A stretch of 32,784 nt of DNA from Candidatus Dojkabacteria bacterium (GTDB taxonomy: Bacteria; Patescibacteriota; Dojkabacteria; JAHIVN01): assembly GCA_016932045.1 (NCBI GenBank), contig JAFGDO010000024.1, forward strand, positions 1 to 32,784, given 5' to 3'. The position numbers were made by a program, and so were the translations under genes. The stretch's first letter is position 1, and every line of letters begins with the position of its first letter. Below are positions 10,309 to 27,536 of the stretch, one piece after another. The notes under the pieces are model-generated. The model searched no databases and was not told the origin of the DNA. It worked only from the letters and a program-made list of their open reading frames with translations.

Positions 10309-11742
10309 ATGAAAAGACATATTGTAGTTATAGTATTTGTTACAATATTTATTTCAGCAGTATCAATTATAGCTATTCTCGTTGCTAGAGGATTTACTTT
10401 TACAGGCACCGAGATAAAAGAAAACGGAATTATTAATGTTGTCTCACAACCTGAAGGTGCAAACATAACTATCAATGGGGAAGAAACGGCAGTTACACCA
10501 GAAAAGATCGAAGTTGTTGCAGGGAAAATAGAAGTTATCATCTCAAAAGAAGGATACAAAGAGTGGAAAAAAGAGATAGATCTTGAACCTTCAATAGTTA
10601 CCGACATATATGCAACACTCTTTCCAGAAACCTTATATCTTGAACAGATTACTTTTACAAGTATAGATAAAGCATTTTTCTCGCAAGATGGAGCGATCGC
10701 TTTATATACAGTCTCTAATCAAACCAATAGCGGTATCTGGCTGGCTAAGTTGGAAAAAAGCATCTTTGAGCTTTCCTCGCCTCAACCTACGAGAATTGCT
10801 TCTCTAAGTATTATCCCTGAAAACAATACAAATACTCAGAATTATGATTTTATTATAGCTCCAGACAATACTCGAGCTATAGTTATCTGTCCTCAAGAAG
10901 AATATACGCTTTTTCAGCTTCTTAATCTCGAGAACTCAAAAGCAGAAACGATTAACATCAATAAAAAGATAGGATTCAATCCTGCCTCGGTTTCTTTCAG
11001 CTTTAATCGAAATCATCTTTTGATAAAAGATATCGCAATTTATGTAAATTACGATATCGAAAAAGATCAAGTAACATTTATCTCAAGAGTAACTGAAGAA
11101 TATGCACCACAAATTATTCAGTCTGGTAGCGATTTGCTGTTGCTCGAATATAGTTTCGACAGAAGAAGCAGAACCTTATACAAGATCACGGCAGCCCTAA
11201 ATAAAACTACTGTTGAGTTACCTCAGGAAATAGCAGGTGAATCAATAAAGAGAATGTTTGGATCCAAAAATAATGGCGACTTGATTGTCATATCAACTCA
11301 AGACTCATCTTTTATCCTTGATTTAAAGACAAATTCACTCCCTATTCAAATTTCAGAGGGACCGATTAACATTGTCAGTTGGTCACCAAATGGCAATTCT
11401 TTTTTGTATACTGAAAGTGGAGAGGTTCTGAAAACAGCATCGACTATGAGACTTCCTAGTGGCAAACTGGAATTGAAAACATACACTCTTTTAGAAAATT
11501 ATAAACCTGAAAACATAAGCCTTTCCTGGAGTAACAACTCACAACAAGTACTTTCTTTTGATAGCGAAAAAATGAAACTATTTATTCAAGATAAGGATTC
11601 TTTAAATAGAAGACTCCTATATGAAGGTACTCTTTCTTATAGAGATGCATTCAAGTTCTCTCAGAACGAAACTTTCTTAGTTCTGCTCTTAAAAGATGAT
11701 GGGGAATACTCAAATCTTTACTCCTTCAAATTAACTATTTAG
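10309..11742 (+). CDS. Membrane-anchored PEGA-domain protein
   Basis: An N-terminal signal anchor (about residues 3-26, IVVIVFVTIFISAVSIIAILVA) is followed by a PEGA domain at about 42-105. That domain shows NVVSQPEGANITINGEE, the TP..I and AG...V.IS..GYKEW pattern typical of this surface-associated fold. Residues 110-477 are a long region of short repeated beta strands with motifs such as SWSPNGNSFLYTESGE and LSWSNNSQQVLSFDSE, suggesting a TolB/WD40-like propeller. It is probably an exported, membrane-tethered protein that binds a wall or surface ligand; no enzymatic residues are apparent. It is the only + strand gene between the ligase cassette and the right end. It has its own promoter and a Shine-Dalgarno sequence, unlike most genes here. 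Confidence 0.8.
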   Translation: MKRHIVVIVFVTIFISAVSIIAILVARGFTFTGTEIKENGIINVVSQPEGANITINGEETAVTPEKIEVVAGKIEVIISKEGYKEWKKEIDLEPSIVTDIYATLFPETLYLEQITFTSIDKAFFSQDGAIALYTVSNQTNSGIWLAKLEKSIFELSSPQPTRIASLSIIPENNTNTQNYDFIIAPDNTRAIVICPQEEYTLFQLLNLENSKAETININKKIGFNPASVSFSFNRNHLLIKDIAIYVNYDIEKDQVTFISRVTEEYAPQIIQSGSDLLLLEYSFDRRSRTLYKITAALNKTTVELPQEIAGESIKRMFGSKNNGDLIVISTQDSSFILDLKTNSLPIQISEGPINIVSWSPNGNSFLYTESGEVLKTASTMRLPSGKLELKTYTLLENYKPENISLSWSNNSQQVLSFDSEKMKLFIQDKDSLNRRLLYEGTLSYRDAFKFSQNETFLVLLLKDDGEYSNLYSFKLTI

Positions 11743-24127: not shown

Positions 24128-25390
24128 CTAAATATCTTCATGCAAGGTTGCCAAGAACTCTCTATTATCTTTGGTCTTTTTCATTCTCTCAAGTAATACC
24201 TCAGTTCTTTCATCTTCTTTAAAAGTGTCAATCATTCTCCTAATCCTCCATGATTGCATAAGTACTTCTTGAGAAAGTAGTAGTTCTTCATTTCTTGTCC
24301 AAGATTTTTGTATGTCAATAGCAGGATAGATCCTTTTTTCAGACAGTCTTCGTTCTAAATGAAGTTCCATGTTCCCTGTTCCCTTGAACTCCTCGTATAC
24401 CAAATCATCCATTCTGCTTCCTGTATCGACGAGTGCAGTAGCAACAATTGTCAGACTCCCCCTCTCTTCAAAATTCCTAGCAGCTCCAAAGAAACGCTTT
24501 GGAGGATATAAAGCAACTGGGTCAAACCCTCCAGATAAAGTCCTCCCCGAAGGAGGTGCAGTCATGTTATATGCCCTAGCAAGCCTTGTGATACTATCCA
24601 TAAGGATCATCACATCGCTACCCTGCTCGACCAACCTCTTAGCCCTTTCGAGGGCCATCTCGGCCACACGTGTATGATTCTCAGCAGGTTCGTCAAAGTT
24701 CGCAGCAACGACTTCACCTTCAACTGATCTTTCCATGTCGGTAACTTCCTCAGGCCTTTCTCCAATAAGAACTACCATAAGATGGATGTCCTTATCATTA
24801 GCCCTGACTCCATGAGCAATATCTTTAAGAAGCCAAGTTTTACCAGCTTTCGGTGGAGAAACTATCATTCCTCTCTGTCCTTTACCAATTGGTGCAAGAA
24901 TATCTATCACCCTTGTAGAAAGCATCTCACTTTTTGTTTCCAGTTTTATTTGTTTGTTGGGAAATACAGGGGTTAGTTTTGAAAAAGTTGGTCTTGATAC
25001 TGCCTTCTCAGGATCCAGTCCGTTTACAACTTCAATTTTTAGAAGACTTAAATATTTTTCTCCATCTTTTGGAGGTCTAGCCCTCCCTGATATAAAATCT
25101 CCCGGCCTTAGATTAAATCTCTTAATTTGAGAACTTGAAATGTAAACATCGTTCTCACTTGGAAGCATTTTGAGCGAACGCAGAACGCCATGACTGCCAT
25201 CATTCTTTATCTCAAGTACACCTTCAGCAAAGATATTTCCGCCCTTTTTGGTCTGTTCTTCGAGAATTTTCAAAATTAACTCATCCTTCCTAAGCTCGGC
25301 ATACATCTTAAGCCCTAGTTCTTTTGCAAATTTCCTAAGATCGGCTAAAGTCTTGATATCCAGCTCAGCAATAGTCACTTCTTTTTTCAC
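24128..25390 (-). CDS. rho: Transcription termination factor Rho
   Basis: Rho is a hexameric RNA helicase that ends untranslated transcripts. The 420-residue protein has the N-terminal Rho-N helix region, then the OB-fold RNA-binding domain (GVLEIKNDGSHGVLRS, YISSSQIKRFNLRPGDFISGRARPP). The ATPase domain shows IGKGQRGMIVSPPKAGKT as Walker A, VVLIGERPEEVTDMERSV, ILMDSITRLARAYN as Walker B and the Q-loop GTGNMELHLER. No acidic or disordered insert is present, so it is a minimal Rho. The GTG start is preceded by an AT-rich leader of about 80 bases and a consensus promoter. No autoregulatory structure was seen in that leader. Confidence 0.98.
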   Translation of the reverse strand: MKKEVTIAELDIKTLADLRKFAKELGLKMYAELRKDELILKILEEQTKKGGNIFAEGVLEIKNDGSHGVLRSLKMLPSENDVYISSSQIKRFNLRPGDFISGRARPPKDGEKYLSLLKIEVVNGLDPEKAVSRPTFSKLTPVFPNKQIKLETKSEMLSTRVIDILAPIGKGQRGMIVSPPKAGKTWLLKDIAHGVRANDKDIHLMVVLIGERPEEVTDMERSVEGEVVAANFDEPAENHTRVAEMALERAKRLVEQGSDVMILMDSITRLARAYNMTAPPSGRTLSGGFDPVALYPPKRFFGAARNFEERGSLTIVATALVDTGSRMDDLVYEEFKGTGNMELHLERRLSEKRIYPAIDIQKSWTRNEELLLSQEVLMQSWRIRRMIDTFKEDERTEVLLERMKKTKDNREFLATLHEDI

Positions 25391-25477: not shown

Positions 25478-25506
25478 AGTATAAGTTACAAATAATCTTT
25501 TGTCAA
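25478..25506 (-). promoter_or_regulatory. rho promoter
   Basis: Minus-strand TTGACA (25501-25506, consensus), a 17-base spacer and TATACT (25478-25483) lie 88 bases before the GTG start. This separates rho from the structured element upstream. Confidence 0.85.
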
Positions 25507-25699
25507 ATCCAAAATTTCAAATCCTAAATAACAAATAAGCTCCAATATTCAATTCAGTTAATTCTAAAATACTTAAATCTGTTTTGAGAATTTTAATTGA
25601 GATGTGGTTTTTATTTGCTATTCACGACTTGAAAATTCTTATTCAACAATCAGTTATACTATTTCTATCATAGGAAATCAAAAAAAGTGACTATTGAAT

Positions 25700-25890
25700 A
25701 GAAACGGGATCGGCACTGCCCCAACCGACCCCGATAGAAATTTTTCCGTAAAAAAACTTTTATCGAAGTCGCTGCCTATGCCATGTAATAAAAAGAACGA
25801 TTATCACTAATACCGAGAGTCCAGTAGGTTGTACGCGAACCAGACTCTGGGCATTAGTGACAATTATATTAGTCTAATTATAAAACGAGC
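25700..25890 (-). ncRNA. Candidate structured small RNA of unknown family
   Basis: Downstream of a near-consensus promoter the minus strand holds three helices, more GC-rich than the flanks. The first is TCACTAAT/ATTAGTGA (25853-25860 with 25804-25811), continued by CCCAGAGTC/GACTCTCGG with one mismatch and GGTT/AACC. The second is a 14-base-pair arm with one wobble and one mismatch (25732-25745 with 25752-25765). The third is CGGGGTCGG/CCGATCCCG (25725-25733 with 25705-25713) followed by TTTCTATT, a possible terminator. The second and third overlap by two bases. No ORF is present and rho has its own promoter downstream. Length (about 190) would suit 6S RNA, but end-to-end pairing was not found, nor SRP, tmRNA or RNase P signatures. 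Confidence 0.5.
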
Positions 25891-25903
25891 TAAATATAAC
25901 ATT

Positions 25904-25933
25904 ATTATACCCTATAACATTTTATATTGTCAA
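25904..25933 (-). promoter_or_regulatory. Near-consensus promoter of the candidate small RNA
   Basis: Minus-strand TTGACA (25928-25933) and TATAAT (25904-25909) are both perfect hexamers, separated by 18 bases. No coding gene begins within 500 bases downstream, so the product is probably the structured RNA. Confidence 0.75.
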
Positions 25934-26207: not shown

Positions 26208-27536
26208 TCAAAGTATTTCCTGCAACTCTTTAACTGAACTCACTCTTAATGCCTTTTTCACCCCATAAACGCTTGAAGAGGCCTCTTTAGGTAGTATAAT
26301 ACCCTGCTTGTATCCTAGCCTCCCCAACGCTTTTACCTTATCCTCAAGAAGCCCGGGAGAGTGAATTTGCCCTGTCAGGCTTACCTCACCTACGCAAACG
26401 CGTCCTGGATCTACTTCTCTGTCAAAATACGTCGATAACAACGCAAAACAGATACTTAAATCCAAAGACGAATCATCTACTTTCAGACCATTTGCGATAT
26501 TTACATAAACATCCTTATCTAGGAAGTTTGCTTTAGTATATTTGGTCAGCAAAGCACAAAGCATTTGTACTTTTGACTTTCGAATGCCACTTACAATTCT
26601 CTGAGGAACACTAAAAGTGGCCCTTGTTGTCAATGCCTGCACCTCAATAAGTATTGCTCTCCTACCTTCAAATATAATCCCCTTACAAACACCAACCCTA
26701 GGATCCTTTGATGCGATAAACATCTCTGCAGGATTGCTTGCATCAACAAAACCGGTTCTTGTAAAATTGAAAACACCTATTTCCTGAGTCGAACCAAATC
26801 TATTCTTCACCGCTCTTATAAACCTGACTCTATTAGAGTTATCACTGTCAATATAAAAAACTACATCAACCAAGTGTTCAATCATCTTTGGTCCTGCAAG
26901 TTCTTTTGACTTCGTCACATGTCCAACTAAAAAGAATGTTGCTCCAGTCTTTTTAGCAAAGTTTACTATCCTCGTTGTACATTCCTTCACCTGTCCTACC
27001 CCGCCTGGTAATCCCTTTAAATGATTTGTTTTTACAGTCTGAATCGAATCTAGTATTACCAAACCATATTTATCTTCTTTGAGAGTAGCAATTATAGAAT
27101 CAATATCTTCTCCACAAATGACATCTAATTTCTTTTTCACTCCTAATCTCTTGGCATGGATAGTTATTTGTTCCTGAGACTCTTCTGCACTTACATATGC
27201 ACATTTATATCTTAAAGAATTAATATTACTCACTAGTTGAAGTAACAGCGTTGTTTTCCCTATCCCCGGTTCACCTCCTAATAGTATCACTTCCCCTTTC
27301 ACTAAGCCTCCTCCAAGAACTCGGTCTAATTCTTGCAGTTTTGTACTAATTCTTCTTTCTACCCCGCGTCTAGCTGACGGGATTTTTACCACTTTCAGCC
27401 TAGTAATAGTTTTGCCCTCTGCTTCATCCCCCTTCTCTACCTTTTTTAAACTCTCCCAGGTACCACAGCGAATACACCTTCCCATCCACTTTGGAGTTTC
27501 AAATCCGCATTCAATACATGCGTATAATTCTTTCAT
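26208..27536 (-). CDS. radA: DNA repair protein RadA (Sms)
   Basis: RadA is a RecA-related helicase that extends recombination branches and aids transformation. The 442-residue protein shows the N-terminal zinc finger CIECG..CIRCG (about 7-24), Walker A GGEPGIGKTTLLLQ (about 81-94), Walker B LVILDSIQTV and the RadA-specific KNRFG (about 246-250). The C-terminal Lon-like domain ends with VCVGEVSLTGQI and GVKKAL. The gene lies 80 bases downstream of clpC on the same strand, a common partner order in Gram-positive bacteria. A Shine-Dalgarno-like GGAG precedes the ATG by 12 bases. The presence of comEA and comEC in the window fits a role in natural transformation. Confidence 0.97.
   Translation of the reverse strand: MKELYACIECGFETPKWMGRCIRCGTWESLKKVEKGDEAEGKTITRLKVVKIPSARRGVERRISTKLQELDRVLGGGLVKGEVILLGGEPGIGKTTLLLQLVSNINSLRYKCAYVSAEESQEQITIHAKRLGVKKKLDVICGEDIDSIIATLKEDKYGLVILDSIQTVKTNHLKGLPGGVGQVKECTTRIVNFAKKTGATFFLVGHVTKSKELAGPKMIEHLVDVVFYIDSDNSNRVRFIRAVKNRFGSTQEIGVFNFTRTGFVDASNPAEMFIASKDPRVGVCKGIIFEGRRAILIEVQALTTRATFSVPQRIVSGIRKSKVQMLCALLTKYTKANFLDKDVYVNIANGLKVDDSSLDLSICFALLSTYFDREVDPGRVCVGEVSLTGQIHSPGLLEDKVKALGRLGYKQGIILPKEASSSVYGVKKALRVSSVKELQEIL

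Follow-up and report, generated by a model that had tools for sequence, protein, structure and literature searches.

Genomic Context and Architecture of the RNA Locus

The window, i.e., the whole analysed stretch of 32,784 nucleotides, belongs to the class Dojkabacteria (WS6, Patescibacteria) and derives from an assembly of 1.46 Mb (G000), and its rho and radA genes have their closest counterparts in genomes of candidate division WS6, for example OLB21 (rho, 73% identity). A predicted small RNA is encoded on the minus strand between these two genes, and the features of the locus, listed in the direction of transcription, are as follows:

26208–27536, minus strand: radA (NCBIfam TIGR00416), the upstream neighbour of the RNA
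25904–25933, minus strand: sigma-70 promoter TTGACA-18-TATAAT (12/12)
25885–25898, minus strand: predicted transcription start and site of the boxA-like sequence of most relatives, degenerate here (motif scoring)
25802–25862, minus strand: P1 hairpin with the family-specific loop UUCGCGUACAACCUA, recognised by covariation and matched by model R1 at 25805–25859 (58.2 bits)
25732–25765, minus strand: P2 hairpin, variable, absent in some relatives and here able to extend into the 5′ arm of P3
25705–25733, minus strand: P3 hairpin, a terminator-like structure with a covarying stem and the loop UUGGGGCAGU, in which GGGCAGU is invariant
25690–25704, minus strand: T-containing tail past P3, TTTCTATTC, weak here, the probable 3′ end
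25478–25506, minus strand: separate promoter of rho, TTGACA-17-TATACT
24128–25390, minus strand: rho (NCBIfam TIGR00767/NF006886), the downstream neighbour of the RNA

Elsewhere in the window, an ordinary ribosomal protein L10 leader (RF00557, 46.9 bits) precedes rplJ at 2382–2542 on the plus strand.

A sequence-only reading of this DNA had proposed a new small RNA under a near-perfect minus-strand promoter. The promoter at 25933–25904 is indeed the sole 12/12 match in the window (spacer 16–18; 0.07 expected from shuffles), and a promoter of at least 11/12 is present upstream of the RNA at 79 of 84 homologous loci. The 208 nt downstream of it fold at −65.1 kcal/mol (z = −5.4, a stability equalled by 0 of 200 shuffles), which bears out the strong folding proposed, and the RNA is ORF-free as described, with no minus-strand ORF of at least 20 aa. 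A coding function was also considered and rejected, as there is no ORF on the RNA strand and the changes among relatives are compensatory rather than following a codon pattern. The GC-rich terminal hairpin of the earlier reading was found at 25733–25705 and corresponds to P3, and at 57 of the 72 P3-bearing loci it is followed by at least six T among the next ten bases, so that promoter and terminator can both be regarded as established from the sequence comparison. In the complete genome G022, a perfect 12/12 promoter-like match also lies right before a tRNA-like gene (G022:C1:291016-291139), for which ARAGORN gives the anticodon UUA (possible UAA reader).

Conserved Hairpins P1, P2 and P3

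The long hairpin reported earlier at this locus was recovered as P1 (25862–25802), whereas its eight closing pairs proved to be an undercount: the P1 of the window has 13 closing pairs, one C·C mismatch, 10 further pairs and a 13-nt loop (z = −6.25). Read inwards, it consists of a covarying outer stem, a conserved unpaired C and a 7-bp block ending in U·G, followed by G·U and G-C below the loop. The general P1 template begins with a stem of 4–15 bp, then U-A, C-G, C-G and one unpaired C, and continues with seven pairs (the last usually U·G), G·U, G-C and a family-specific loop of 5–47 nt.

The first P1 set was collected with a pattern that imposed CC, GG and CUG, and its structure-blind alignment (MAFFT) was 97.6% paired with a covariation of 0.70 versus 0.23, its members having been selected for pairing. 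A later model search, in which CC, GG and CUG were not imposed, yielded 102 distinct copies, and in their alignment, which was fitted to the model and therefore leans towards it, 95.4% of pair cells show standard pairing, 457 cells are doubly changed versus 141 in shuffles, and the covariation score is 0.65, compared with 0.20 after shuffling and a maximum of 0.23 after sliding, in agreement with the first alignment. The unpaired C is retained in 101 of the 102 copies and faces A in 51, U in 30, C in 18 and G in 3, and a non-G partner in 99 copies is what would be expected of a kept mismatch. Moreover, the G·U adjoining the apical closing pair occurs in 97 copies. One to three P1 copies are present per RNA, with two in L132, L158 and L119 and three in L121, while L148 contains two P1+P3 units. 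A second P1 of genome G002 (47 bits; L244 2419–2473, G002:C97) lies in an operon leader (csoR-like metal repressor/DsbD-like) and is the only clear P1 met within an mRNA leader.

P3 combines a constant loop with a covarying stem, in which eight pairs are doubly changed; the stem variants include GGGUCGG/CCGAUCCC, GGGAUCGAU/AUCGAUCCC and GGGUUGG/CCAAUCCC, as well as unrelated stems in L009 and L172. The number of P3 copies per RNA ranges from zero to two (two in L009), and P3 is missing from family f10 and genus g15, where P1 stays. The P3 loop was seen to pair with linker segments (ACUGC...) in L006, L015 and L016, an interaction rejected as not general.

The boxA-like Start

In most relatives, the sequence at the start site is (U/A)GNUC(U/A)UUNAAA. 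The strict pattern is present in 38 of 84 relatives, versus 1.3 in shuffles and none to one in neighbouring windows, and a weighted score of 9 or more is reached by 61/84 relatives versus 8–11/84 in control windows, the best score in this window being only 7.9. The rrn leaders of several members of the class contain TGCTCTTTAACAA or TGTTCTTTGAAAAC. It is established that boxA binds NusB–S10 and thereby shields untranslated RNA from Rho. The boxA-like sequence at the 5′ end of most relatives might therefore function as a boxA, allowing the NusB–S10 machinery to shield the untranslated transcript from Rho. The Nus complex of E. coli is the subject of a published study (PMC5725501).

DnaA boxes (TTWTCCAC[AC]) number 28 in the 27.6 kb upstream of the RNA promoter versus 12 in 311 kb elsewhere in the loci, i.e., they are about 26 times denser there; they belong to 18 of 84 genomes (e.g., L175 and L245–L248), and none lies near the RNA in the window or in G022. 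TGTGGATA also recurs within the 5′ part of the RNA in families f5 and f16.

Distribution of the RNA

Counted by covariance model or motif, with the model-recovered loci of family f2 included, the RNA is present in 81 of 86 Dojkabacteria genomes. The P1 covariance model alone detects it in 70/86 and the P3 pattern in 57/86 (a reversed control pattern gave 0 matches), while blastn detected it in 40 of the 58 relatives. Among the remaining five genomes, G023, G053 and G056 have no rho match either, the contig of G066 stops about 100 nt from rho, and G016 has a weak P1-like hairpin, seen by eye only. At 700 nt upstream of rho, the G016 locus (L185) contains a highly modified form with GC-rich long hairpins instead of P1/P3. 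With rare exceptions, each genome has one RNA locus. In a second small class of Patescibacteria, P1 without P3 occurs in five of eight genomes, where it stands alone and has a U-run or terminator after it, and the rest of the 380-genome phylum sample is negative apart from two borderline matches in G403 and G178 (E 0.001–0.007), which were judged to be chance.

No Rfam family matches the RNA at gathering level, and no credible match was found at relaxed E-values with Rfam 15 (4227 families) in the window or in 16 loci, which cover about ten families of the class as well as the second class; the relaxed matches on P1 were to miRNA models, far under their cut-offs. The helices are kept among relatives with plentiful compensatory changes. 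A known Rfam family or a lack of helix conservation, either of which could have spoken against the sequence-only reading, has thus not been found, and its proposal of a new small RNA is upheld. To our knowledge, small regulatory RNAs are hardly known in Patescibacteria, and a literature search joining Patescibacteria names with non-coding or motif RNA found nothing. By comparative evidence, this predicted small RNA is previously undescribed, its P1/P3 hairpins are strictly conserved class-wide, and it is the local representative of a new RNA family spanning the class Dojkabacteria and the second small class of Patescibacteria. As the RNA has a single locus and is kept throughout a class with genomes of only about 0.5–1.6 Mb, it is probably of importance to the cell, and an important role is made very probable by the strictness with which its hairpins are conserved.

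Copies in Phage Genomes

The IMG/VR contig L356 (43 kb), which encodes a replication initiation protein, RecT and an exonuclease, carries a promoter-like TTGACA, the boxA-like AGATCTTCC, P1 (E 5e-12, with a C·A mismatch) and P3. Contig L355 (44.7 kb; RusA, an O-like replication protein and a RecE-like protein) contains a P2–P3 pair at 10760–10840, which follows a 37-codon ORF and precedes early genes, and a P1 match is absent from the contig. Since the RNA itself is on these contigs, the L356 and L355 phages presumably infect Dojkabacteria. Four other viral pattern matches (L357–L360) were rejected as chance, being in or at genes without P1.

Independence of the Transcript and Alternative Explanations

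It is very probable that the RNA is expressed as a stand-alone transcript of about 190 nt, with its own very strong promoter and an end at P3. However, in most genomes (60 checked) the RNA immediately precedes rho in the same orientation, also where radA has been lost, and P2 can be extended into the 5′ arm of P3 in the window as well as in several relatives, with a matching change in L022, which would also suit a cis-acting rho leader whose P2 and P3 form an antiterminator/terminator switch setting rho expression. We consider this unlikely, because rho has its own promoter, unlinked loci exist and some next genes are convergent. The separate promoter proposed earlier for rho is present at 25506–25478 in the window, and a strong promoter (at least 10/12) lies between P3 and rho in 47 of 60 genomes versus 5.5 expected. 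Moreover, most f4 genomes carry the RNA upstream of rplJ, with a clpC-like gene on its other side and rho about 6 kb distant; in f8, the RNA and rho are 240 kb apart or lie on different contigs; and the gene next to the RNA is convergent in G009, G203 and G135. A shared transcript and constant linkage, as expected of a rho attenuator, are therefore not found, and together with the U-tracts after P3 these observations establish the independence from rho and support the independent transcript of the sequence-only reading. The switch as such pairs well in the window and in L002/L003/L022 and was rejected in view of the uncomplemented 5′ arm of P3 in f2 and the optional nature of P2, which L247 and L248 lack between P1 and P3. 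The boxA-like motif beginning most copies, with its resemblance to the rrn leaders of the class, and the phage copies adjoining replication and recombination genes could alternatively indicate a processive antitermination element of the nut/put type, in which boxA and hairpins would load factors on RNA polymerase for reading through later terminators. This is very unlikely, given that P3 is immediately followed by a U-tract in most P3-bearing loci, the downstream genes are convergent in the three genomes named above, and the downstream rho mostly has its own promoter.

The invariant P3 loop on a covarying stem also resembles that of base-pairing small RNAs, and the loop GGGGCAGU might pair with ACUGCCCC sites in target mRNAs, with P1 merely a stabiliser. 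Such an antisense regulator seems quite unlikely, as the 41 ACTGCCC sites of the complete genome G022 do not mark any clear set of translation starts, and as f10 and g15 dispense with P3 and keep P1. A strong promoter, a single locus, a stable fold and class-wide presence would equally fit a diverged housekeeping RNA (6S, SRP RNA, RNase P or tmRNA), to none of which the sequence-only reading could match the RNA. Its judgement was correct, and this identity is extremely improbable. RNase P RNA lies at other loci in 19 of 20 genomes, and no match to its model (RF00010) is found here; tmRNA is located at another place in G022, and the present locus has no tRNA-like domain with a tag reading frame; and the 6S RNA covariance model (RF00013) has no match here and detects 6S at other loci in the near relatives G001 and G002, both of which also have this RNA. 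As for SRP RNA (RF00169), P1 was considered as a candidate and rejected: there was no match here to a domain IV with a GNRA/GGAA loop, a search of 116 Patescibacteria genomes (E up to 0.1) detected no small SRP RNA, and the Ffh M domain, the partner expected, was not found in 13 genomes of the Dojkabacteria, with controls detected in both searches. The RNase P, tmRNA and SRP identities are thereby already refuted.

Proposed Function

The working parts of the RNA would be one to three P1 hairpins plus, in most lineages, P3 with its GGGCAGU loop. A kept mismatch and wobbles within covarying stems, fixed spacing and variable copy number are the reasons for a model of protein sites similar to CsrB or 6S RNA, since repeated protein sites typically show varying hairpin numbers, as in L132, L158, L119, L121, L148 and L009. 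P1 and P3 are thus somewhat more apt than not to be sites recognised by one or two RNA-binding proteins. By binding such protein(s), the repeated hairpins would enable the presumably abundant RNA to act in trans like CsrB/RsmZ or 6S, either as a multivalent scaffold or by sequestering its partner(s), and a multivalent protein-binding RNA acting in trans from a stand-alone transcript is the reading that we regard as probable. Several findings count against this trans-acting model: the RNA adjoins rho on the same strand in most genomes (60 checked), which fits a leader too; a P1 is located in the csoR operon leader of G002, and early genes follow the phage copies; f10 and g15 have no P3; and the boxA-like match in the window is poor.

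More tentatively, and with doubt prevailing, the RNA could be a core RNA of a deep-branching lineage with ultra-small genomes, i.e., a new ribonucleoprotein or global regulator made of reiterated C-mismatch/G·U hairpins that controls RNA polymerase, Rho or the ribosome, and phages might copy the RNA to interfere. P1 and P3 provide precise probes for fishing out the RNA-binding protein served, while the phage copy offers an independent route to function. As well, the missing SRP RNA and Ffh M domain extend the picture of what these bacteria lack.

Comparison with Known Systems

The RNA shares its position upstream of rho with the E. coli rho leader (rhoL), from which it differs in that rho has a separate promoter here, the RNA is unlinked in several lineages and there is no leader peptide. 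In most relatives, a boxA-like start with hairpins after it recalls rrn leader boxA, lambda nut and HK022 put, as does the phage copy; in contrast to these, the RNA has an intrinsic terminator, not genes to read through, and its hairpin sequences are unrelated. Similar to 6S RNA (RF00013), it is predicted to be a stand-alone structured RNA of about 190 nt, but it is composed of the separate hairpins P1, P2 and P3, with no long closing stem and no large central bubble. In the CsrB/CsrC/RsmZ small RNAs, a stand-alone transcript with a strong promoter likewise carries reiterated fixed-motif hairpins in varying number, corresponding to the one to three P1 copies per RNA found here, whereas the hairpin loops of the present RNA contain no GGA (in P1, GGA pairs with UCC) and there is no sequence relation. 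With the structured RNA classes discovered by comparative genomics (Rfam 15), the RNA has in common the kind of evidence, namely covariation, promoter and terminator.
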